Assembly: GCA_030148425.1 (NCBI GenBank)
Contig: JASBTM010000017.1
Coordinates: 558,001 to 622,000 of the forward strand
Length of the DNA stretch: 64,000 nucleotides
Direction of reading: 5' to 3'
Origin: Hyphomicrobium sp.
Lineage (GTDB): Bacteria; Pseudomonadota; Alphaproteobacteria; Rhizobiales; Hyphomicrobiaceae
The position numbers and the translations under genes are program-made. Below, piece by piece: positions 29,298-44,925 of the stretch (positions are counted from its first letter, which is position 1; every line of letters begins with the position of its first letter). Under the pieces are notes generated by a model, which was given only the letters and a program-made list of their open reading frames with translations, did no database searches and was not told the DNA's origin.

Positions 29298-30092
29298 TCA
29301 TTCGCTCTTTGGTTGCGAATTATCGTTTTTCACAGCCGCCAATCGCTGTCGAGCAAAGACTGCAAAAACGGCGATCAGTGTCAGCGCGAGCCCATACCAC
29401 GTTACAACGTATTGCAGGTGGTTATTGGGCAAATTGATTTCAGTGGTCCCGCCCTTGGGCCAGCCGCCAGGGTTGGCGGGCAGTGCATCGGCGTCGAGCG
29501 AAAAGGGGGCATAGGCCTGCCCTTTTTCGGCATTGAACTGGAGCGCCGAGGGGGGGCCTTGCGGGCCCCACTGCATGGCTTCAAGGTCGCGCCAATACCA
29601 GCGATTTCCGGCGTAGTCGTTGTCAGCCGAGAACCAAGTTTTAGACTGCGGCAAACGCACGAGGCCCGTGACGGTCACCGGCCCCTGCACCTGGCCTTCA
29701 GCCCGCTTGGAAGGGTCCCTCAGTTCGTCCGGGACCCAGCCGCGGTTGACGAAAATCGGCGGCAAGCCGCCCTGCGGAATGAGCAGCGTATAGACGTCCC
29801 AGCCCTGAGACTGCGTGGTCGGGTCGTAGAGATGGCGTTCGCGGCTATAGTCGAACGTGCCGGTAACGCGCATGTGCGTGTATTCAACGTCGCCCGATTT
29901 GACGTACTCAGACAGGACAGCCGGATAGGAGACGGGCTCGGCGGTGCTCCGGGTCTCGATGCGCGCAATCAGCCCCTCTTTCCAGGTCTTGCGGTGCCAT
30001 TGCCAATTTCCAAGAGCAATCAGGAACGGCAGAAGGGCAAGCGTCAAAAGACCTGGAACGATGAGACCGGCGGCGCGCCAACGCGCAAACAT
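29298..30092 (-). CDS. SURF1-family cytochrome oxidase assembly protein
   Basis: SURF1 helps insert heme a into subunit I of aa3 oxidases. The 264-residue protein has two membrane helices, one near the N-terminus (about 10-30) and one near the C-terminus (about 235-252), around a periplasmic domain, with the family motifs LGNWQWHRKTWKE, VNRGWVP and the C-terminal HLQYVVTWYGLALTL. The ATG at 30092 has AAGGAG upstream, which lies over the stop of the preceding DUF983 gene, so the two are coupled. It is the last oxidase assembly gene of the cluster. Confidence 0.94.
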   Translation of the reverse strand: MFARWRAAGLIVPGLLTLALLPFLIALGNWQWHRKTWKEGLIARIETRSTAEPVSYPAVLSEYVKSGDVEYTHMRVTGTFDYSRERHLYDPTTQSQGWDVYTLLIPQGGLPPIFVNRGWVPDELRDPSKRAEGQVQGPVTVTGLVRLPQSKTWFSADNDYAGNRWYWRDLEAMQWGPQGPPSALQFNAEKGQAYAPFSLDADALPANPGGWPKGGTTEINLPNNHLQYVVTWYGLALTLIAVFAVFARQRLAAVKNDNSQPKSE

Positions 30093-30094
30093 GG

Positions 30095-30517
30095 TCACTC
30101 CTTGGAGAGGCGGCCTTCCTCGGCCTTGTTCTTGTATTGCAGAGCGATCAGCAGCGCCTTCAGGAAGCGCAGAAGAAATACGGCAAGCAACGGCGTCAGG
30201 ATGCCCCAAAGCAGCACGTGCGCCCACCAGGGAACGCCAAACTTGAACTCGGCGATAAGCGCGCCGCCGATGCACAGAAAGCCCAAGATAAAGATGGCGA
30301 ACACCGCGGGGCCGTCGCCGGTGTCGACGAACTTATAGTCGAGGCCGCAGTTCTCGCAGGTCTCGCGCATGTTCAGCACATCGACGAAGAGCTTACCCTT
30401 GCCGCAACGGGGGCATCGGCAGGCGAGCCCGGCGACAATCGGCGAAACGGATTGAGAGGTGTCTTGCAAGGCTATCTCGATTTCTGCGCCAAAGCTTCCA
30501 TGCCGACTACTGCGCAT
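30095..30517 (-). CDS. DUF983 membrane protein with zinc-ribbon-like cysteines
   Basis: The 140-residue protein carries two CxxC pairs in CRCPRCGKGKLF and CENCGLDY, likely a small metal site, and then two membrane helices (about 70-90 and 95-120). DUF983 genes sit in cytochrome oxidase clusters of alphaproteobacteria between coxC and SURF1, as here, which suggests a role in oxidase assembly; direct evidence is not known to me. The start could be the ATG at 30517 or an alternative codon nearer QDTSQSVSPI. Confidence 0.85.
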   Translation of the reverse strand: MRSSRHGSFGAEIEIALQDTSQSVSPIVAGLACRCPRCGKGKLFVDVLNMRETCENCGLDYKFVDTGDGPAVFAIFILGFLCIGGALIAEFKFGVPWWAHVLLWGILTPLLAVFLLRFLKALLIALQYKNKAEEGRLSKE

Positions 30518-30621: not shown

Positions 30622-31560
30622 TTATTCGGCGCCCGGAACAATCGGACCGGCGCCCCAGACGTAAATGCAGGCGAACAGGAACAGCCAGACAACGTCGACG
30701 AAATGCCAGTACCAGGCAGCCGCCTCGAAACCGAAGTGCTGCTGCGGCGTGAAGGCACCGCGGATCGCGCGGACGAGGCAGACGAATAGGAAGATCGTGC
30801 CGATGATAACGTGCACGCCGTGGAAGCCCGTCGCCATGAAGAACGTCGAGCCGTAGGCGTGGCCGGCGAAGCTGAAGCCCGCGTGGCTGTACTCCAGAGC
30901 CTGGCAGTACGTGAACGTCATGCCGAGCAGCACAGTCAGGATGAGGCCGATAACGAGGCCGCGGCGGTCGTTCTTCAGAAGCGCATGGTGCGCCCATGTC
31001 ACCGTGCAGCCAGAGGTCAGCAGGATGAGCGTGTTGACGAGCGGCAGCCCCCAGGGATTGAAGGTGTGCTTGAAGAAGCCCGGAATCGACGCATCCGTCG
31101 CTTCAACCGGCACCGGCGGCCACTTACCGCCGAAGACTTGATCGCGCGTGGTCGTGCCGACGAGCTGAGTCGTGTTGTTCATCAGATCGTGCACGCCGGC
31201 CGGGAAGAGGGCGAAATCGAAGTAGGCCCAGAACCAGGCAACGAAGAACATCACTTCCGAGGCGATGAATAGGATCATGCCGTAGCGAAGATGGAGCTGA
31301 ACGACGGGCGTCTGGTAGCCCTGGTTGGCTTCGCGGATGACGTCGATCCACCAAGCCCAAGCGGTCGCAACAACAGCAGTAAAGCCGATGGCGAAAAGCC
31401 AGGGGCCTTTCATACCGAGAACGCCTTCACCGTCGACGTGCGTACGCATCCAAACGATGCCGCCAACCGCCAGGATGAGCGCCGAAATGGACGCGGCGAT
31501 CGGCCAGGGGCTCGGATTCAAAAGGTGATAGTCATGGTGCTTCGCGTGCGTATCCGCCAT
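30622..31560 (-). CDS. ctaE: Cytochrome c oxidase subunit III
   Basis: Subunit III stabilises the proton-pumping core. The 312-residue protein has seven membrane helices with the family sequences YGMILFIASEVMFFVAWFWAY and HGVHVIIGTIFLFVCLVR, and ends with AAAWYWHFVDVVWLFLFACIYVWG, here about residues 280-305. It is longer than minimal COX3 because of a loop after the fourth helix (MNNTTQLVGTTTRDQVFGGKWPP). Position after ctaG agrees with the alphaproteobacterial aa3 cluster. Confidence 0.96.
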   Translation of the reverse strand: MADTHAKHHDYHLLNPSPWPIAASISALILAVGGIVWMRTHVDGEGVLGMKGPWLFAIGFTAVVATAWAWWIDVIREANQGYQTPVVQLHLRYGMILFIASEVMFFVAWFWAYFDFALFPAGVHDLMNNTTQLVGTTTRDQVFGGKWPPVPVEATDASIPGFFKHTFNPWGLPLVNTLILLTSGCTVTWAHHALLKNDRRGLVIGLILTVLLGMTFTYCQALEYSHAGFSFAGHAYGSTFFMATGFHGVHVIIGTIFLFVCLVRAIRGAFTPQQHFGFEAAAWYWHFVDVVWLFLFACIYVWGAGPIVPGAE

Positions 31561-31678: not shown

Positions 31679-32299
31679 TTAGCCGCCGTTCTTTGCCGGC
31701 TTGCCTGTCACGTCAGCTGTCGCTGCCGGGCGGTCCACCGGGTAGAAGATGTAGGATAACGTGACTTCCGACAGCGATGCCGTATCCCTGTCCTCGACCA
31801 TCTTCGGATCGACGAAAAAGGTGACCGGCATCTCCACAGTCTGATGCGGTTTGAGTGTCTGCTCGGTAAAGCAGAAGCACTGGATCTTGTTGAAGTAGGC
31901 ACCGAAAATTTCGGGCGTGACGTTGAACGACGCTTGTCCGGTGACCGGCTTGTCGGAATTGTTCGTTGCGCGGAAGAACGCGAGACCCGTCTCGCCGATC
32001 TTCAAGTCCATCTTGTTGACGTCGGGCTCGAAGGTCCAGGCCAGACCTGGGGCGACGTTGGAATCGAAGCGAACGGTGATCGTCCGGTCGAGGACCTTGT
32101 GGGTGTTCGCGTCCGCACGCTGCGTCGTGCCGTTGTAGCCCGTCGCCTTGCAGAACATGGTGTAGAGGGTCGGCGAGGCCGCAGTGATCGCGCCCATCAC
32201 ACCGAGCGCGGCGAGGCAGACGTAAACGGTGCGGCGATTGTTGCGCGAAGACTTCGCCGCCCTCGCCTCTTCGGTGTCGTCGACATCATTTTTGTCCAT
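31679..32299 (-). CDS. ctaG: Cytochrome c oxidase assembly protein Cox11/CtaG (CuB insertion)
   Basis: Cox11 delivers copper to the CuB site of subunit I. The 206-residue protein has one membrane helix (about 24-44), a periplasmic immunoglobulin-like domain and the copper-binding CFCF motif in IQCFCFTEQTL, together with an upstream cysteine in MFCKATGYNGTT that is also conserved. Its ATG overlaps the stop of the small coxF gene (TGATG). Confidence 0.95.
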   Translation of the reverse strand: MDKNDVDDTEEARAAKSSRNNRRTVYVCLAALGVMGAITAASPTLYTMFCKATGYNGTTQRADANTHKVLDRTITVRFDSNVAPGLAWTFEPDVNKMDLKIGETGLAFFRATNNSDKPVTGQASFNVTPEIFGAYFNKIQCFCFTEQTLKPHQTVEMPVTFFVDPKMVEDRDTASLSEVTLSYIFYPVDRPAATADVTGKPAKNGG

Positions 32300-32471: not shown

Positions 32472-33395
32472 TCACGCAAGGATACGGCTGACGACGGCTT
32501 CGCCAAGAAGCACCGCGAACAACACGTAAAGATAAAAGATCGAAAACCAGAAGAGCTGCCGTGCGACGGTATCGGCCTCGCGTCCCTCTGTCGTGACGTA
32601 GACGCGGACGGCGAGGGCCAAGAAGACGGCGCCGAGCAGCGTCGAGCAGACGAGATAGGTGACGCCACCGAGACCGACGAAATAAGGAACGACAGCCAGC
32701 GGCACCAGCAGCACGGAATAAATCAGGATCTGACGACGCGTCTCTTGCAAGCCCGACACGACCGGAAGCATCGGCACGCCCACGCGTTCGTAGTCGCGGC
32801 AGCGATAGAGAGACAGCGCCCAGAAGTGCGGCGGAGTCCACATGAAGATGATGAGGAACAACAGAAGACTGTCGAAGCTGACATTGCCCGTTACGGCGGC
32901 CCAACCGATCATTGGAGGGAACGCGCCGGCGGCGCCGCCGATAACGATATTATAGGGAGTCCGGCGCTTCAGCCACATCGTGTAGACGAAGAGATAGAAG
33001 GCGATAGTGATCGCGAGCAGCGCGCCTGCTGTCCAGTTGACGAGCACGCCGAGGGTCAGGACCGAGCAAACCGCAAGGACACCGCCGAAGCTCAGCGCTT
33101 CATCGCCGGTGACGCGGCCGCGTGGCAGCGGGCGAGCCGCTGTTCGCGCCATGCGGGCGTCGATATCGGCGTCGTACCACATGTTGAGGGCGCCCGACGC
33201 GCCAGCACCGATAGCGATGGTGATGATCGCGATCACGCCGAGGATAGGGTTGATTGGACCGGGAGCCGCCAACATGGCGGCAAGCGCCGTAAAAACGACG
33301 AGCGCCATAACACGCGGCTTCATGAGCTGAATGAAATCGCTAACGCTCGGCTCGAGCGTCAGATCGACTTCACTGACTTCACTTTGAATGCTCAT
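32472..33395 (-). CDS. ctaB: Protoheme IX farnesyltransferase (heme O synthase)
   Basis: CtaB attaches a farnesyl chain to protoheme, the first step of heme A synthesis. The 307-residue protein of the UbiA family has about nine membrane helices, the first polyprenyl-diphosphate motif NMWYDADIDARMART with its aspartates, and the second loop YRCRDYERVGVPMLPVVSG. It lies between ctaD and coxF on the same strand. The heme A synthase gene (ctaA) is not in the window. Confidence 0.96.
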   Translation of the reverse strand: MSIQSEVSEVDLTLEPSVSDFIQLMKPRVMALVVFTALAAMLAAPGPINPILGVIAIITIAIGAGASGALNMWYDADIDARMARTAARPLPRGRVTGDEALSFGGVLAVCSVLTLGVLVNWTAGALLAITIAFYLFVYTMWLKRRTPYNIVIGGAAGAFPPMIGWAAVTGNVSFDSLLLFLIIFMWTPPHFWALSLYRCRDYERVGVPMLPVVSGLQETRRQILIYSVLLVPLAVVPYFVGLGGVTYLVCSTLLGAVFLALAVRVYVTTEGREADTVARQLFWFSIFYLYVLFAVLLGEAVVSRILA

Positions 33396-33482: not shown

Positions 33483-35108
33483 TCAGTGATGGTCCGTCGA
33501 GGCGATGCGCGGCAACGTCTCATAGGAATGGAAGTCCGGCGGAGACGGCAGCGTCCATTCGAGGGTGGTTGCGCCGACGCCCCACGGATTGCTCGCCGCT
33601 TTTTCCTTCTTGATGAAGTAAGCGTAGAACATGCCGAAGAGGAAGACGAGCAAGCCCGCGGTCGTGATGTACGACCCGATCGACGAGACCCGGTTCCAGT
33701 AGGTGAATGCTTCCGGATAGTCGGCGTAATGGCGCGGCATGCCGGCGAGGCCGAGGAAGTGCTGCGGGAAGAAGAGAATGTTGGCGCCGATGAACGTCAA
33801 CCAGAAGTGCAGCTTACCCAGGAACTCGCTGTACATGTAGCCCGACATCTTCGGGAACCAGTAATACCAGCCCGCGAAGATCGAGAACACGGCGCCGAGC
33901 GACAGCACGTAATGGAAGTGCGCCACGACGTAGTAGGTATTGTGCAGCGAACGGTCGATACCGGCGTTCGAGCACATGACGCCCGTGACGCCGCCGATCG
34001 TGAAGAGGAAGATGAAGCCCAGCGCCCAGACCATCGGCGTGCGGAACTGAATCGACCCGCCCCACATCGTCGCGATCCAAGAGAAGATCTTGATGCCAGT
34101 CGGCACGGCGATGACCATGGTCGCGAACATGAAGTAGGCCTGCGTATCGACGCTGAGACCCGCAGTATACATGTGGTGCGCCCACACGACGAAGCCGACG
34201 AGACCGATGGCAACCATCGCGTAGGCCATGCCGAGGTAGCCGAAGATCGGCTTCCGCGAGAAGGTCGAGACGATGTGGCTGACCATGCCGAAGCCGGGCA
34301 GGATCAAAATGTAAACTTCGGGATGGCCGAAGAACCAGAACAGATGCGCGTAGAGCAGCGGGTCGCCGCCGCCTGCGGCATCATAGAAGGTCGTGCCGAA
34401 GTTGCGGTCCGTCAGCAGCATCGTGATGGCGCCGGCGAGAACCGGCAGCGACAGAAGCAGAAGGAATGCGGTGACGAGCACCGACCAGGCAAAGAGCGGC
34501 ATCTTGTGCAGCGTCATGCCCGGAGCGCGCATGTTGAAGATCGTGGTGATGAAGTTGATGGCGCCGAGGATCGACGAAGCGCCCGCGATGTGAAGCGAGA
34601 GGATCGCGAAATCGACTGCCGGTCCCGGATGACCGATCTTGCTCGATAGCGGAGCAACGACGATCCAGCCCGTGCCGACGCCGTTCGCATCGGCCGTTCC
34701 AGGAACGAACAGCGAGATGATGAGAAGCGTAAAGGCAACCGGCAGAAGCCAGAACGAGATGTTGTTCATGCGCGGGAAGGCCATATCCGGCGCGCCGATC
34801 ATCAAAGGCACGAACCAGTTGCCGAAGCCGCCGACCATGGCAGGCATGACCATGAAGAACACCATGATCAGGCCGTGCGCGGTCACGAACACGTTGTAGA
34901 CGCCTTCGTTCGCGAAATATTGCAGGCCGGGCTCCTGGAGCTCCAATCGCATCATGAGCGAAAGGAAGGCGCCGACGCAGCCTGCGAAGATCGCGAACAA
35001 CAGATAAAGGGTGCCGATATCTTTATGGTTGGTCGAAAAGAACCAGCGCTTAAAGAAAGGCGGGGCGTGATCGTGGCCGTCCCCCGCTGCGTGTGCCGTG
35101 CTTCCCAT
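33483..35108 (-). CDS. ctaD: Cytochrome c oxidase subunit I, with altered Mg-site residues
   Basis: The 541-residue catalytic subunit keeps all core residues: His78 and His399 for heme a, His397 for heme a3, His262, His311 and His312 for CuB, the cross-linked Tyr266 with Glu264 in [12 protein letters not shown], and the K-channel lysine in [11 protein letters not shown]. Against this, the pair that is normally His-Asp before [10 protein letters not shown] reads His389-Asn390, and the normally double arginine of GMPRRY reads Arg459-His460. In known enzymes the aspartate binds the non-redox Mg ion and the arginine contacts heme propionates near the proton exit. A-type oxidase; see findings. Confidence 0.97.
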
Positions 35109-35210
35109 TTCGTAAAGCCCTTGTCCCGGTAATTTGCTTGATCTTTTTATTGTTGTAGCTGACGGCTGACAGTTGCCTCGGCCATCGGCCGGGCCTCCGT
35201 CAGCCTGCGA

Positions 35211-36194
35211 TTACTGTGCCTGCGCCATATCCTGCTGAATAATGGCCTGACTTGCCGTATCGGCGTTGAGGATTTGCTGAGCCTTTTTCTTGTCCTTGGC
35301 TTTCAGCGCAGCCATCCATGCATCATAGACAGGCTGATCGACAACACGAATGGCGATGGGCATGGCTGAATGGAGCTTGCCGCATAGGACGGAGCACTGG
35401 CCGAAGTAAGAGCCAATCTTCGTCGCCTTGAACCAAACGGCAGAGGTGCGGCCAGGCACGGCCTGCATCTTTACGCCGAAAGACGGGATCGTCCACGAAT
35501 GGATGACGTCGTTCGAGGTCACCAGGACGTCCACGACCTTGTTCACCGGCACGGCGATTTCCTGATCGACGGCGAGGCGACGGATCTTCTTGTCTTCCTT
35601 CCAGACCGGAAGAGAGTCGACGTAGAGCGCGTTATGCAGCGCGGCGCCTTCAAGCGAACCGTACTTCTTGTCGAAGGCGTCGTCGCCCAGCTTGGCGCGC
35701 AGCACGTCCTCGTCGTTGATCATGTTGGAGGTGATGGTCACCTTGTCGTCGACGTATTCGTGCTCCCAGAACCAAGCGTTGCCGGTGGCCTTGATCGTCA
35801 CCTCGGGCTTCGGGAACGTGTAGATATTGAAGAGGAGGTGGAAGGAGGGAATCGAAATGCCGACGAGGATCAAGATCGGCACGATCGTCCAAGCAACTTC
35901 GAGGAGCGTATGATGCGTCGTGCGAGAGGGAGTTGGGTTCTTTTTCTCGCTGAAGCGGAACATCACCCAGACCATCAGCACCATAACAAAAAGAACGATA
36001 ACGGTGATGATGATGTTGATGACGTTAAAGAGGTGCGAGATCTCGTCCATGATCGGAGAGGCCGACACCTGCAGTCCAAGCTCTCCATCCGTCGGTTGGC
36101 CGAGACCGGCCAATGCGGGCGTCACTCCCCCGAGGGCAACCGCCAAGCACACGGCTGCCAGAGCGGCAACCGCGCCAAACATCCTTTTCGACAT
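35211..36194 (-). CDS. ctaC: Cytochrome c oxidase subunit II, CuA motif with Glu to Val change
   Basis: Subunit II takes electrons from cytochrome c through CuA. The 327-residue protein has a signal peptide (about 1-29), two membrane helices (about 58-80 and 99-121) and a periplasmic cupredoxin domain. The CuA ligands His232, Cys267, Cys271, His275 and Met278 are present, but the loop reads CSVLCG instead of CSELCG: Val269 replaces the glutamate that also binds Mg. The aromatic patch reads AWFWEHEY rather than the usual QWYWSYEY. A roughly 45-residue insert (about 155-200) precedes LAVDQEIAVPV. First gene of the cluster, with GGAGCGAAGGA before the ATG. Confidence 0.96.
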   Translation of the reverse strand: MSKRMFGAVAALAAVCLAVALGGVTPALAGLGQPTDGELGLQVSASPIMDEISHLFNVINIIITVIVLFVMVLMVWVMFRFSEKKNPTPSRTTHHTLLEVAWTIVPILILVGISIPSFHLLFNIYTFPKPEVTIKATGNAWFWEHEYVDDKVTITSNMINDEDVLRAKLGDDAFDKKYGSLEGAALHNALYVDSLPVWKEDKKIRRLAVDQEIAVPVNKVVDVLVTSNDVIHSWTIPSFGVKMQAVPGRTSAVWFKATKIGSYFGQCSVLCGKLHSAMPIAIRVVDQPVYDAWMAALKAKDKKKAQQILNADTASQAIIQQDMAQAQ

Positions 36195-39611: not shown

Positions 39612-39923
39612 TCCATTCGGTTACCGTGCAGAGTTCATGACGCTTGCGCGGCTTGCGAAATCCGCCCGGCCCTGAGGCTCGGGCGGCTAAGAGAGGAGCG
39701 GTGGGCTGCGGGACCTACCGCTCTTCTTTATTTCAGGGAACCGGCTGCCGATTCAGCGCTGGACGCCCCCATCGCGGCTACTCAGACGCGATAGGACGCG
39801 CACTGCGTTTTTCCTGCCTTCGGCAACAAAAATTTACAAAACGAACAAGCATTCGCCTTGACGTTTCCACAATCCGTCAGCAAACAGAATGCTCATTCGG
39901 TTTTATTTGGGGCTCATCGAGCC
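39612..39923. other. Intergenic region with hairpin before tetR
   Basis: A stem CCGCCCG (39662-39668) pairs with CGGGCGG (39680-39686) and may end transcription from the left. The rest shows no gene; AT-rich sequence at about 39825-39915 (AAAAATTTACAAAACGAAC) likely holds the promoter and operator of the tetR efflux operon. I could not pick out a clear palindromic operator. Confidence 0.5.
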
Positions 39924-40586
39924 ATGCCAAGGCTTCGTCCAGATACGCAACGTGCACGTCGCGAGCACATTCTCGATGCGGCTCTTACTTGCTTCGTCCG
40001 CGGGGGCTTTCACGCCACGACGATGCAAATGATTTGCCGTGAGGCCGGCGTGTCGCCCGGCGCGCTCTACGTTTACTTCGACAGCAAGGAAGCCTTGATC
40101 GCAGGTTTGTGCGAACGCGACCGCGCGGAATTTGCAGAACGCTTCGCGACGCTCGCAACGGCACCGGACTTTCTCAAAGCGCTCGCGGCCATCGGCGAGC
40201 ACTATTTCGTCAACGAGGCGGCGGAGAAGCAGCGCTTCGTCGTCGAAATGGGAATCGAGGCGACGCGCAATCCGCGGATCTCGGAAATCTTCATGGGCGT
40301 CGACAAGTACTGCAATGACGCCTTCGAAGCCTTGTTTCATCGACTGGAAGATGAAGGGCGGATCGCGCCGCTCGTCGATATTCCGACTCTCGTGAAAGTG
40401 TTCAATGTTTTCGGCGACGGCATGTTCTGGCGCCGGGCGATCGATCCCGATGCGGATATCGGCGCCGTTCTTCCCGTCGTCATCGAGTTGATCGGCGGCC
40501 TCCTCAATCCGAAGAAGGCCGCGCCCGCTCGCCGATCGCGGCCGCGATCAAAGACCAAAACTGCAACGCGCGAGGCCAGACAATGA
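39924..40586 (+). CDS. TetR/AcrR-family transcriptional regulator
   Basis: The 220-residue protein begins with a TetR DNA-binding domain: REHILDAALTCFVRGGFHATTMQMICREAGVSPGALYVYFDSKEALI, about residues 13-59, with the recognition helix at SPGALYVYF. The C-terminal half is a helical ligand domain and ends in a basic tail. It overlaps the membrane fusion protein gene by four bases (ATGA) and so is the repressor of the efflux operon it leads, acting on the promoter just upstream (inference from arrangement). Confidence 0.93.
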   Translation: MPRLRPDTQRARREHILDAALTCFVRGGFHATTMQMICREAGVSPGALYVYFDSKEALIAGLCERDRAEFAERFATLATAPDFLKALAAIGEHYFVNEAAEKQRFVVEMGIEATRNPRISEIFMGVDKYCNDAFEALFHRLEDEGRIAPLVDIPTLVKVFNVFGDGMFWRRAIDPDADIGAVLPVVIELIGGLLNPKKAAPARRSRPRSKTKTATREARQ

Positions 40587-41797
40587 AATTCAGGACATTT
40601 GTCGTTGTCCTGCTCGCGACCGGATCTGTCGTCGGCGCGAACTATCTCTATCTCGAGAAGCGGCATACCGCCGAAATCCAAGCCGAGCGTATGGAAGCGG
40701 CGAAGCCGATCGCCGCGCCAGCCGTCACCGTAACGAAGGTTGCGACGGAGAACTTCGTCGAGACCGCCGTGGTTTCGGGGTCTCTCGTCCCGCGAGAAGA
40801 AATTCTCGTCTCGCCGGAGGTCGAAGGCCTGCGCGTGCTCGAACTCTACGCGGACGAAGGCGATAAGATCAAAAAGGGTCAGATCCTCGCGCGCCTCGTC
40901 GCCGAGCAGCTCGACGCGCAACTCGCGCAGAATGACGCAAACATTGCTCGCGCCACTGCAGCAATTGCACAAGCGGAAAGCCAAATCGTGCAGGCGGAGG
41001 CGCAAGCAAAGGAGGCCGCTGCTCAGCTTGAGCGCGCCGTGCCGTTGAAGCAATCCGGCTATCTTTCGGGCTCGATGTACGACCAGCGGGAAAGCGCGGC
41101 GCGAACGACGCAAGCGCAGCTGGTCGCGGCGCGCGATGGCCTCAAAGCTGCAAACGCCGAGAAAGAGCAGGTTGAAGCGCAACGACGCGAACTGCAATGG
41201 CGGCGCAGCAATACCGACGTCACCGCTCCGGAAGACGGTGTCATCAGCCGGCGGATGGCGCGCATCGGCGCCATGGCGTCCGCCAATGGCGAACCGATGT
41301 TCCGCATCATTCAGAAGGGTGAGATCGAACTCGATGCCGAAATCGTCGAGACGGAACTCAAGAATGTTCGGGTCGGACAGAAGGCCATCGTCACGGTTCC
41401 TCAGCTCGGAGACTTCGAAGGCAAGGTTCGGCTTGTCTCTCCCGAAGTCGACAAGGCGACGCGTCTCGGCCGCGTGAAAGTGTTCCTTGGCGTCAATCCG
41501 GTGCTTCGCATCGGCGCATATGCGCGCGGACGGATCGAAACAGCAACGAGCCGCGGGCTCGCGGTTCCCTCTTCCGCCGTCGCGTTCGACCATGATCTCG
41601 CGTCAGTGCAGGTCGTGCGGGACAACAAGGTGCAAAAGCACATGGTATCGATCGGGCTCATCGCGAACGATCTCATCGAGATCAAAAGCGGCGTCGCCGA
41701 GGGCGATCTCGTCGTGACGCGCGCCGGTACTTTTCTGCGCGACGGCGATGTCGTTCGCCCCATCCTCCCCGAACCGCGCCTTAGCGAGGTGAAGTAA
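40583..41797 (+). CDS. RND efflux periplasmic adaptor (membrane fusion protein)
   Basis: The 404-residue protein has one N-terminal membrane anchor (about 5-25), a barrel-sandwich lipoyl domain (VVSGSLVPREEILVSPEVEGLRVLELYADEGDKIKKGQ, about 68-105), a coiled-coil hairpin rich in Ala, Gln and Glu (about 110-200) and a beta-barrel domain. These are the features of HlyD/AcrA-type adaptors that bridge an RND pump to an outer-membrane channel. Overlaps of ATGA with tetR and TAATG with the pump gene show tight co-translation. No outer-membrane channel gene follows, so the pump must borrow one. Confidence 0.94.
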   Translation: MKFRTFVVVLLATGSVVGANYLYLEKRHTAEIQAERMEAAKPIAAPAVTVTKVATENFVETAVVSGSLVPREEILVSPEVEGLRVLELYADEGDKIKKGQILARLVAEQLDAQLAQNDANIARATAAIAQAESQIVQAEAQAKEAAAQLERAVPLKQSGYLSGSMYDQRESAARTTQAQLVAARDGLKAANAEKEQVEAQRRELQWRRSNTDVTAPEDGVISRRMARIGAMASANGEPMFRIIQKGEIELDAEIVETELKNVRVGQKAIVTVPQLGDFEGKVRLVSPEVDKATRLGRVKVFLGVNPVLRIGAYARGRIETATSRGLAVPSSAVAFDHDLASVQVVRDNKVQKHMVSIGLIANDLIEIKSGVAEGDLVVTRAGTFLRDGDVVRPILPEPRLSEVK

Positions 41798-44700
41798 TGC
41801 GCCTCAATATTTCGGCATGGTCCATTCGTCGTCCGGTTCCTGCGATCGTGTTGTTCGCGGTCCTGATGCTGCTCGGCACATTGAGCTTCAAGTCGCTTCC
41901 CGTTACGCGCTTTCCGAACATCGACGTTCCGATCGTGTCTATCCAGGTGACGCAATCGGGAGCAGCGCCTGCCGAACTTGAAACGCAGGTCACGAAAGTT
42001 ATCGAGGACGCGGTTGCAAACCTCGTCGGCATCAAACACATCACGTCCACGCTGACGGACGGACTGTCGTCGACCATCCTCGAGTTCCGCCTCGGCGTCG
42101 ATACCGATCGAAGCTTGAACGATGTCCGGGACGCGGTGGCGAAGGTGCGCGCCGATCTTCCGCGTACCATCGACGAGCCCATCGTCGAGCGGATCGACGT
42201 TGAAGGCCAAGCGATCCTATCGTTCGCGGCGACGTCTCCGGGAATGACGCTCGAAGAGCTGTCGTGGTTCGTCGATGACGTTATCAAGCGGAAGCTGCAG
42301 GCGACAAAGGGCGTCGGCCGCGTCGAACGCTACGGCGGCGTCGCCCGAGAAATTCGCGTCAATCTCGATCCGGATAAGCTGCTGGCGTACGGGATAACCG
42401 CCGCGCAAGTGAACTCGCAGGTTCGCGCGACCAACGTCGATCTTGGATCGGGGCGTGGCGAGATCGGCAGTCAGGAACAGGCGATCCGAACGCTGGCTGG
42501 CGCCAGAGAAGTTGAAACGCTTGCCGATGCGAAAATCATTCTGGCGGGCGGACGCGAAGTCCGCCTCAAGGATCTCGGTCGCGTCATGGACGACGCGAGC
42601 GAGCAGAGATCGTTCGCGCGGCTCGACGGCAAGCCGGTCGTCTCGTTCTCGGTTTTCAGAACCAAAGGATCGAGCGAGCTTTCCGTTTCCGATGCCGTCA
42701 ATCAGACGCTCAAGGAACTCGAGACCGAATATCCCGACGTGCATCTGACGAACATCGACGATGCTGTCGCCTATACGCGCGGGAACTACGTGGCAGCGAT
42801 GCAAACCCTCATGGAGGGAGCTGCGCTCGCGATTCTCGTCGTTCTTATATTCCTCAGAAATTGGCGCGCGACGATGATCGCCGCCATTGCCCTGCCGCTT
42901 GCAGCGATCCCGACGTTCTGGGCGATGAGTGCGCTTGGATTTTCGCTCAATCTCGTCAGCCTGTTGGGCATTACGCTCGCGACCGGCATTCTCGTCGACG
43001 ACGCGATCGTCGAAATCGAGAACATCGTGCGGCACATGCACATGGGGAAATCGCCCTATCGCGCGGCGCTCGAGGCGGCCGACGAAATTGGGCTAGCTGT
43101 CATCGCCATCACTCTGACGATCGTCGCAATTTTTGCGCCCGTCTCATTCATGGGCGGCGTTGCGGGACAATATTTCCGGCAGTTCGGTATGACCGTCGCA
43201 GTGGCGGTTCTCGTGTCGCTGCTTGTGGCGCGTCTCATAACGCCGATGATGGCGGCTTATCTCCTGCGGCCAATCCCGGAAGAAGCGCATGTCGACGGGC
43301 CGATCATGCGTTTCTATACGCGTTTCCTGAAGATGACGCTTCGCCATCCCTATGTGACGCTGATCACCGGCATCGCGCTTTTCTCGGCGTCGGTCTATGC
43401 GACGACGCTATTGCCGACCGGCTTTCTTCCGGACGAAGATACGTCGCGCGTGGTCGTCTCTGTTGAGCTTCCGCCTGGCACCCAGCTCGAGGAAACGCTA
43501 ACGAAGAGCGATGAAGTCGTCAAAGCGCTGCGAGTCATTCCCGAAGTTTCGCAAGTGTTCGTGCTTGGCGGCACGAGCCCCACGGGACAGCTCGAAGTCC
43601 GGCGCGCGGCGCTCTTCATGCAGCTCGTTCCCAAAGACGAGCGGAAGCTGACGCAGAAGCAAATCCAATCGATCATCGCAGCAAAGATCGCCGACATTCC
43701 AGACGCACGCGCCTGGTACGTCAACGAGCGTGGGGAGCGAGAGCTTTCATTCTCGATGTTGTCGAGGGAAGGCGATGATCTCAATGCCGCCATCGGCAAA
43801 GTGGAAGGCGCGCTGCGCAGCGTTCCGGGCTTCCGCAACGTCGCCGCTTCCGGATCTACGGACCGGCCGGAAATCCGAGTGGTGCCGCGGCTCGACGTCG
43901 CCGCACGCCTTGGCATTGCACCCGATCAAATCGCAGAAGCCATTCGCGTCGCGACGATCGGCGATGCCGGCTTCAATCTCGCGAAGTACACAGTCGGCGA
44001 CAGGCAAATTCCGATCCGCGTGCAGCTAGAGGAAAATACGCGAACTGATCTGAAGAAGATCGAGCAGCTTCGCCTCATGAATGCGCAAGGCAAGGCTATT
44101 CCGCTGACCGCCGTCGCTTCAGTTTCGCTCGGGCGCGGCCCGGCGTCGATCGAACGGTTCGACCGGCTGCGCCGCGCGGTCATCGGCGTCGATCTCGATC
44201 GCGGCATGCCGTTGAGCGTCGCCCGCGAAAACTTTCTGAAAGTTATAGAAGATCAGAATTTGCCGAAGACCGTAACGCTCCAGCCATCCGGCGACGCGGA
44301 AGTGCAAGATGAAGTCGCCGAAGGCTTCATCACCGCGATGGGCACAGGCATTCTCATCGTCTTCGGACTTTTGGTTCTGCTGTTCGGCAGCGTATTCCAG
44401 CCCATCACGATTTTGCTGTCGCTCCCTCTATCGTTCGGCGGCGTTGCTCTCGGTCTGCTCGTTACGAACAATCCGATCAGCATGCCTGTCTACATCGGTC
44501 TTCTGATGCTCATGGGCATCGTGACGAAGAACGCGATCATGCTCGTCGATTTCGCAATCGAGGAGATTGCAGCGGGTGTGGAGCGCAGCCAGGCCGTGAT
44601 CGATGCAGGCCGGAAGCGAGCGCGTCCCATCATCATGACGACGCTGGCGATGGCGGCGGGTATGTTGCCCAGCGCCTACGCGCTCGGCGACGGCGGCGAA

Positions 44701-44925
44701 TTCCGCGCGCCGATGGCCATTGCGGTTATCGGCGGGTTGATCGTGTCGACGTTGCTATCGCTCGTCTTTGTGCCGTCATTCTTTACCGTGATGGACGATC
44801 TCGGCCACTTGATGCAGCGCGTTTTCGGCAGGTTCATTGGCCCGACCGACGAGCCAGTAAGCAGCCACGACGTGCCAAAATCAGATGAGCATTCACCAAG
44901 ACCGCTGCCGCTTGCGGCGGAATAA
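41797..44925 (+). CDS. RND-family efflux transporter permease (HAE1 type)
   Basis: The 1042-residue inner-membrane pump has the RND layout of twelve membrane helices and two large periplasmic loops. The N-terminal SIRRPVPAIVLFAVLMLLG and the proton-relay segment GITLATGILVDDAIVEIENI, with the two adjacent aspartates of helix 4, are clear, as is GIVTKNAIMLVDFA of the second half. The sequence resembles the MdtB/C-like or MexF-like multidrug branch rather than the heavy-metal branch. It exports drugs or toxic organics at the cost of the proton gradient. Confidence 0.96.
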   Translation: MRLNISAWSIRRPVPAIVLFAVLMLLGTLSFKSLPVTRFPNIDVPIVSIQVTQSGAAPAELETQVTKVIEDAVANLVGIKHITSTLTDGLSSTILEFRLGVDTDRSLNDVRDAVAKVRADLPRTIDEPIVERIDVEGQAILSFAATSPGMTLEELSWFVDDVIKRKLQATKGVGRVERYGGVAREIRVNLDPDKLLAYGITAAQVNSQVRATNVDLGSGRGEIGSQEQAIRTLAGAREVETLADAKIILAGGREVRLKDLGRVMDDASEQRSFARLDGKPVVSFSVFRTKGSSELSVSDAVNQTLKELETEYPDVHLTNIDDAVAYTRGNYVAAMQTLMEGAALAILVVLIFLRNWRATMIAAIALPLAAIPTFWAMSALGFSLNLVSLLGITLATGILVDDAIVEIENIVRHMHMGKSPYRAALEAADEIGLAVIAITLTIVAIFAPVSFMGGVAGQYFRQFGMTVAVAVLVSLLVARLITPMMAAYLLRPIPEEAHVDGPIMRFYTRFLKMTLRHPYVTLITGIALFSASVYATTLLPTGFLPDEDTSRVVVSVELPPGTQLEETLTKSDEVVKALRVIPEVSQVFVLGGTSPTGQLEVRRAALFMQLVPKDERKLTQKQIQSIIAAKIADIPDARAWYVNERGERELSFSMLSREGDDLNAAIGKVEGALRSVPGFRNVAASGSTDRPEIRVVPRLDVAARLGIAPDQIAEAIRVATIGDAGFNLAKYTVGDRQIPIRVQLEENTRTDLKKIEQLRLMNAQGKAIPLTAVASVSLGRGPASIERFDRLRRAVIGVDLDRGMPLSVARENFLKVIEDQNLPKTVTLQPSGDAEVQDEVAEGFITAMGTGILIVFGLLVLLFGSVFQPITILLSLPLSFGGVALGLLVTNNPISMPVYIGLLMLMGIVTKNAIMLVDFAIEEIAAGVERSQAVIDAGRKRARPIIMTTLAMAAGMLPSAYALGDGGEFRAPMAIAVIGGLIVSTLLSLVFVPSFFTVMDDLGHLMQRVFGRFIGPTDEPVSSHDVPKSDEHSPRPLPLAAE

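Follow-up and report, generated by a model that had tools for sequence, protein, structure and literature searches.

Replacement of Mg-site ligands in both subunits of an aa3 cytochrome c oxidase from Hyphomicrobium, and its link to loss of a subunit II glutamate in related enzymes

The oxidase gene cluster and its replaced residues

The window, by which we mean the whole 64,000-nucleotide stretch of Hyphomicrobium DNA analysed here, carries an ordinary cytochrome oxidase gene cluster on its reverse strand, in the order ctaC, ctaD, ctaB, ctaG, ctaE, a putative DUF983-type gene and a SURF1-type gene.

35211..36194, reverse strand: ctaC, subunit II of aa3 cytochrome c oxidase, 327 aa; TIGR02866 at 172.3 bits against a cut-off of 147.7
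33483..35108, reverse strand: ctaD, subunit I of aa3 cytochrome c oxidase, 541 aa; TIGR02891 at 709.6 bits against a cut-off of 670.75
32472..33395, reverse strand: ctaB, heme o synthase, adjoining ctaD; TIGR01473 above cut-off
31679..32299, reverse strand: ctaG-type cytochrome c oxidase assembly protein; NF003465 above cut-off
30622..31560, reverse strand: ctaE, subunit III, assigned from its position in the cluster and from subunit III models matched below their cut-offs
30095-30517, reverse strand: DUF983-type gene between ctaE and the SURF1-type gene; NF004633 match below cut-off
29298..30275, reverse strand: SURF1-like assembly protein, given as the listed open reading frame, with the true start probably internal; NF050123 match below cut-off

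The DUF983-type gene overlaps the listed start of the SURF1-type gene. On the forward strand, a putative TetR-like regulator and, after it, a putative pair of RND efflux pump genes were called by eye at 39858-44925.

The reading frames of ctaC and ctaD are both intact. The window genome is a draft of 3.72 Mb, and this ctaC is the sole CuA-type subunit II found in it, at 85.9% completeness. A second oxidase of the same genome (L002, on contig C15 of G000) is a bo3-type quinol oxidase, with CyoA and CyoB above cut-off.

CtaD contains His78, His262, His311, His312, His397 and His399, which we take to be the ligands of heme a, heme a3 and CuB, as well as Tyr266, presumably the cross-linked tyrosine. 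Also present are Asp108, Asn97, Asn115, Glu264, Lys340, Thr337 and Ser277, regarded here as the residues of the D and K channels and including the Glu286 of the GHPEV motif. The CuA ligands His232, Cys267, Cys271, His275 and Met278 are all found in CtaC. The initial annotation had stated that every heme, CuB and CuA ligand was kept, and all those that we tested are indeed in place. Together with scores above the TIGR02891 and TIGR02866 cut-offs, these residues identify an A-type aa3 oxidase, in which Mg/Mn ligands (His and Asp of subunit I, Glu of subunit II) are usual but not family-defining; here the histidine is kept, and Asn390 and Val269 stand in place of the other two. B-type (ba3) oxidases generally lack the A-type D-channel residues, of which Asp108, Asn97, Asn115 and Glu264 are present in the window enzyme. 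A quinol oxidase of the bo3 or aa3-600 kind does not fit either, as the CuA ligands are present and the CyoB and QoxB scores fall below cut-off.

The replaced residues were placed by alignment to the chains of solved oxidases:

33939..33941, reverse strand: CtaD Asn390 (codon AAT, context GIDRSLH389-N390) for the Mg ligand Asp (bovine Asp369)
33942..33944, reverse strand: CtaD His389, the third Mg ligand, retained (bovine His368)
35388..35390, reverse strand: CtaC Val269 (codon GTC) for the Mg ligand Glu (bovine Glu198)
33729..33731, reverse strand: CtaD His460 for the second arginine of the propionate region (bovine Arg439)
35463..35465, reverse strand: CtaC Gln244 for Asp (bovine Asp173), water cluster
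34662..34664, reverse strand: CtaD Ile149 for Thr (bovine Thr127), water cluster
34656..34658, reverse strand: CtaD Val151 for Tyr (bovine Tyr129), water cluster
34347..34349, reverse strand: CtaD Ala254 for Gln (bovine Gln232), water cluster

The codons of Asn390 and Val269 were confirmed where the initial annotation had put them, and the CuA loop reads GQC267-S-V269-L-C271-G-K-L-H275-S-A-M278. By the same alignment, Asn390, His389 and His460 correspond to Asp412, His411 and Arg482 of the Rhodobacter sphaeroides enzyme, so that the Arg-Arg pair near the heme propionates (R. sphaeroides Arg481-Arg482) has become Arg459-His460. Val269 aligns with R. sphaeroides subunit II chain residue 229, which is Glu254 in precursor numbering according to the table in PMC12901375. 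An AlphaFold model of CtaD (21 rows) had a mean pLDDT of 71.6, with values below 50 at residues 383-393 and 454-456 that are too low for side-chain distances.

Distribution of the changes among related oxidases

The comparison rests on 368 paired CtaC/CtaD rows (289 + 43 + 36). The first set comprised L001 and L007-L334, minus two window copies (L087, L205), the other COX2-like genes (L109-L116) and 16 short loci that were refetched longer; of the resulting 303 rows, 289 had both residues readable, two had CtaD only and 12 had CtaC only (Glu in nine, Val in three). The second set added 43 of 45 loci (L348 was without CtaC and L358 a duplicate) and the third added 36 of 41 (L384 was without CtaC; L380, L386, L395 and L408 were duplicates). 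Twenty rows come from other classes of the phylum; the remainder belong to the window's own class or are named loci, which nearly all carry alphaproteobacterial titles. Rows L007 and L145 are identical, and the sampling is non-random, since the window's family is over-represented, as are best hits and those named loci that lie nearest the window.

The window oxidase belongs to a 27-row clade of the gene tree (support 99) that holds the window, 20 further members of its genus and six members of four other genera. Asn390, Val269, His460, Gln244 and Ile149 occur in all 27 rows. At CtaD 149 the 297 rows of the comparison that keep Glu269 have Thr (286) or Val (11); at 151 the clade has Val in 21 rows and Leu in six, and at 254 Ala in 21 and Gln in six, whereas the Glu-keeping rows have Tyr and Gln, respectively, in 297 of 297. 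The initial annotation had named two lost ligands. Both losses are real, and the change is wider than it described, since the clade is also fixed for Arg460His, Asp244Gln, Thr149Ile and Tyr151Val/Leu.

The window genus is represented by 22 genomes, and a CtaC match was found in 97 of the 103 genomes of the window's family. Wherever the positions were readable, the window genus and genera g12, g21, g22 and g24 have Asn390, Val269 and His460, and the other genera read have Asp390, Glu269 and Arg460. Asp390 and Glu269 are found in each of the four nearest sister rows; three of these have Arg460, and one is unread at 460. On these sequences the Asn390/Val269 change looks to have happened once in the window clade and to have been held since. 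Sister genera with His-Asp and CSELCG therefore do exist, which might have pointed to local errors in the window, yet the change is common to the whole clade. Because the same residues recur in 27 of 27 clade rows from separate genomes, Asn390/Val269 is an evolutionary switch and not a sequencing or local error.

Residues 161-205 of CtaC (35580-35714) form a CuA-domain stretch that is 45-52 residues long in the clade and 30-34 or less in other rows. We considered this long stretch as a compensation for the altered site and ruled it out, as four sisters that keep the Mg ligands (L134, L135, L195 and L196) share it.

Across the comparison, Glu269 is kept in 297 of the 368 rows and lost in 71, where it is replaced by Gln (35), Val (27), Arg (2), Lys (2), Asn (2), Phe (2) or His (1). 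Every row with Asn390 (53), Ala390 (3) or His460 (39), and every row that has lost CtaC Asp244 (51), is without Glu269; among the 297 Glu-keeping rows we found no Asn390, no His460 (two unread) and no loss of Asp244. The initial annotation had asked whether Asn390 and Val269 go together in other genomes, and had read the joint loss as a site given up or rebuilt, not as a single error; the association of Asn390 with loss of Glu269 in 53 of 53 Asn390 rows among the 368, together with the sharing of the change throughout the clade, supports that view. The coupling is one-way, as 14 of the 71 Glu-less rows retain Asp390. With Glu269 kept, Asp390 has changed to Gly in two rows (L012, L365) and to Glu in five. 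The replacements themselves are restricted: where a Glu-less row has a non-acid at 390 it is Asn in 53 of 56 cases, and Arg460 is replaced by His only.

The catalytic residues tested are unchanged in the Glu-less enzymes. Cys267, Cys271, His275 and Met278 are found in 368 of 368 rows, and the heme a, heme a3, CuB and CuA ligands, Tyr288 and the tested D- and K-channel residues are unaltered in all 71 Glu-less rows, with Asp407 kept in 70. Because these residues are retained, the Glu-less oxidases look like complete A-type enzymes. In one of the 297 Glu-keeping rows CtaD 399, a histidine ligand of heme a, is Asn, possibly through a sequence error.

All 71 Glu-less rows retain His389, compared with 271 of 297 Glu-keeping rows; the other 26 have lost it to Gln or Thr. 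Gln at this position occurs in 25 of the 368 rows (including L051, L230, L337 and L361), all Glu-keeping and some from outside the alphaproteobacteria, and is another, separate way of altering the Mg site.

At first His460 was seen solely alongside Asn390 (29 of 29 rows), a rule broken by L338 and L389-L391, which have Asp390 and Gln269, and by L393, L394 and L400, which have Ala390. The rule that survives is that His460 occurs only where Glu269 is absent. L393, L394 and L400 were found with L008 as the query and combine Ala390 with Phe or His at 269 and with His460. L338, L389, L390 and L391, from four genomes of one family, combine Gln269 and His460 with a CuA loop of unusual length, in which five additional residues separate the second cysteine ligand from the histidine ligand (CGAGEGYAGHSFMP type).

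On a FastTree tree built with these columns removed, parsimony counted 12 losses of Glu269, seven gains of Asn390, four gains of His460 and six losses of Asp244. All of the Asn390 gains (7/7), His460 gains (4/4) and Asp244 losses (6/6) fell on Glu-less branches, with P values under random placement by branch length of about 3e-6, 8e-4 and 2e-5, respectively; for gain of any non-acid at 390 the count was six of eight (P 4e-4). The number of origins shifts with the row set: a smaller tree gave five Asn390 gains (P 1.2e-4), and three of the seven gains fall within a set of 19 rows that another tree recovered as a single clade. Independent-pairs sign tests (treekit), with few independent pairs, did not reach 0.05, with medians of 0.0625-0.25 for these traits. 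Three further occurrences of His460, near L008 (L392-L394, L400), L309 (L385, L387) and L338 (L389-L391), are each shared by at least two genomes, and in the family of L309 another genus retains Asp, Glu and Arg (L388). As judged from these sequences, other lineages appear to have altered the same site separately.

Conserved columns and comparison with known oxidases

Among 218 columns that are at least 97% conserved in the Glu-keeping rows, 200 are unchanged in the sense that none of ten Glu-less groups has half or more of its rows altered. The columns changed in at least three groups, besides Glu269, are CtaC 242 (partly to Arg), which we take to be bovine Lys171 and added to the cluster list, CtaC 244, and CtaD 390, 460, 395 (Val to Ile) and 254. 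CtaD 390, 460 and 254 and CtaC 244 and 269 map to bovine Asp369, Arg439, Gln232, Asp173 and Glu198, all of which stand in the Mg-water-cluster residue table of PMC12901375.

A wider set of 333 columns, at least 90% conserved in the Glu-keeping rows, contains six fixed differences of the window clade: CtaD 149, 151, 390 and 460, and CtaC 244 and 269. All six are among the 21 of these columns on the cluster list (P 3e-8, or 6e-6 after dropping the two originally reported residues and Lys171), and all six appear in the published table (PMC12901375). At a looser cut of 80%, CtaC 140 and 214, both outside the cluster list, also differ in the clade.

A second lineage of alphaproteobacterial aa3 oxidases, with Asn390, Gln269 and Tyr244 (19 rows, for example L050 from Plastoroseomonas and L061 from SAR116), has changed the same three cluster positions. 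It differs from the window clade in having Gln and not Val, Tyr and not Gln, Arg460 kept and CtaC Lys242 replaced by Gln, and it lies apart from that clade on the trees. It too has six fixed differences, five of them in the published table and the sixth at the added Lys171.

The aa3 oxidases of R. sphaeroides and Paracoccus denitrificans share with the window enzyme the CuA, heme and CuB ligands and the D- and K-channel residues; relative to R. sphaeroides, the window enzyme has Asp412Asn, Glu254Val, Arg482His, Asp229Gln, Tyr175Val and Gln276Ala (R. sphaeroides numbering). The bo3 and aa3 quinol oxidases (CyoB/QoxB) have His-Asn at the Mg site, as seen in the CyoB of the window genome, but use a different electron donor and have a subunit II without the CuA cysteines, again as seen in the window genome. 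The B-type ba3 oxidase of Thermus thermophilus also has Asn for the subunit I Asp and a subunit II without the Glu; it differs in having both arginines, Gln151 and Glu126, and the window enzyme is set apart from it by A-type channel residues and by Val269, His460 and Gln244. With Asn377 and Gln151, the ba3 enzyme is described in PMC12901375 as being without Mg while its water cluster persists. As aligned, the Asn390/Gln269 lineage carries the residue pair published for this Mg-free enzyme. The natural absence of Mg ligands has thus been described for a B-type oxidase (PMC12901375); our literature search, judged by titles and the starts of abstracts and with thin coverage of subscription papers, returned no paper on natural loss of Mg ligands in aa3 oxidases, which is weak evidence of novelty.

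A proposed route to an oxidase without the Mg/Mn ion

According to a review, the main-chain carbonyl of Glu198 binds CuA and its side chain binds Mg, and the residue changes with redox state (PMC10194837; PMC10598403). The first of these sources also describes an interaction of Glu198 with Arg439 through water and a model in which the Mg-water cluster stores at least four protons; it names Tyr129, residue 173, Asp364, His368, His291 and Arg438 as proton-accepting, with a polar lining that includes Thr127 and Gln232 (PMC10194837). Residue 173 is printed as Arg173 there and as Asp173 in the table of PMC12901375.

We consider it likely, from the residues present, that the window oxidase is an A-type aa3 enzyme that no longer carries the non-redox Mg/Mn ion. 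In several lineages, loss of the Glu198 equivalent would have been accompanied or followed by loss of Asp369, Arg439, Asp173 and polar residues of the pocket. Without Glu198 the main-chain carbonyl could still serve CuA, Mg would be short of one ligand and Arg439 of its partner. Asp369, Asp173 and Arg439 would then be free to change, which fits the one-way pattern observed. The published roles of Glu198, and the Mg-free ba3 enzyme with Asn377 and Gln151, suggest that no Mg or Mn is bound in the window enzyme and that the water pocket is kept in a less acidic form. Electron transfer from CuA to heme a would continue, since the CuA ligands remain and so does the Arg438 equivalent, the first of the two paired arginines. 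Pumped protons and product water may leave via the heme propionates, His389 and possibly His460, in place of the carboxylate-Mg network.

The window enzyme is predicted to be, probably, still a proton pump. A bolder version of this proposal, which we put forward only tentatively, is that it pumps with full stoichiometry although Mg is absent and Glu198, Asp369, Asp173, Tyr129 and Arg439 are all replaced; in that case neither the storage nor the exit of protons would strictly require the cluster, and His460 would have stepped in as a titratable group next to the heme propionates or would contribute, together with His389, to a new metal site. The clade has replaced Tyr129, Asp173, Thr127, Glu198, Asp369 and Arg439, and in 21 of 27 rows Gln232, while retaining those catalytic and channel residues that were tested. 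Pumping measurements on an enzyme of this kind would test models of proton storage and exit without engineered mutations, and would offer a natural test of what the Mg-water pocket does in proton movement. The losses further suggest a dependence of certain residues on Glu198, Arg439 foremost among them.

An ion might instead still be bound more weakly, by His389, the side-chain oxygen of Asn390, waters and perhaps a different acid, so that the site is altered and not lost. The retention of His389 in all Glu-less rows, despite its loss in 26 Glu-keeping ones, speaks for such a site, and acids at CtaC 144 and 301 in 27 of 27 clade rows are possible stand-ins. However, these acids are not special to the clade, being found in 18-19% of Glu-keeping rows too, Val269 offers no side-chain ligand and the cluster residue Asp244 is also gone. 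Given also that the published account of ba3 with Asn and Gln at the site reports no Mg (PMC12901375), we regard a weaker site as unlikely.

Decay of the aa3 oxidase, the pocket having drifted after loss of Glu269 while a second oxidase carries respiration, appears less probable still. The bo3-type quinol oxidase of the window genome could play that part, but the replacements are uniform (Val269, Asn390, His460, Gln244 and Ile149 in 27 of 27 rows each) and some of them recur in separate lineages, always to His at 460 and, among Glu-less rows with a non-acid at 390, nearly always to Asn. The tested catalytic, CuA and channel residues are retained, and fixed changes at columns at least 90% conserved are confined to the pocket list, so that a new stable state is indicated rather than drift.

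The joint pattern could also have come from a foreign oxidase gene, of ba3 or quinol type for instance, by recombination; the match of Asn390/Gln269 to the ba3 residues (PMC12901375) and the His-Asn of CyoB in the same genome speak for it. This origin is very improbable, since the fixed differences at conserved columns are scattered pocket positions in two genes and both proteins score above the aa3 cut-offs. Sequence or assembly error, or chance, might be suspected of a draft genome that is 85.9% complete and is refuted by the relatives, in which 27 rows of separate genomes have the same residues.

Genes of the PQQ alcohol-dehydrogenase type scored above cut-off in 21 of 22 window-genus genomes and in none of 14 control genomes; cytochrome c-linked respiration is therefore likely to be in use in the genus. 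Some window-genus genomes (G019, G005 and G013, with loci L110, L111 and L112) encode an extra CuA-type COX2 beside the Val269 enzyme, with the loop CTEYCG or CAEYCG, in which the Glu is kept.
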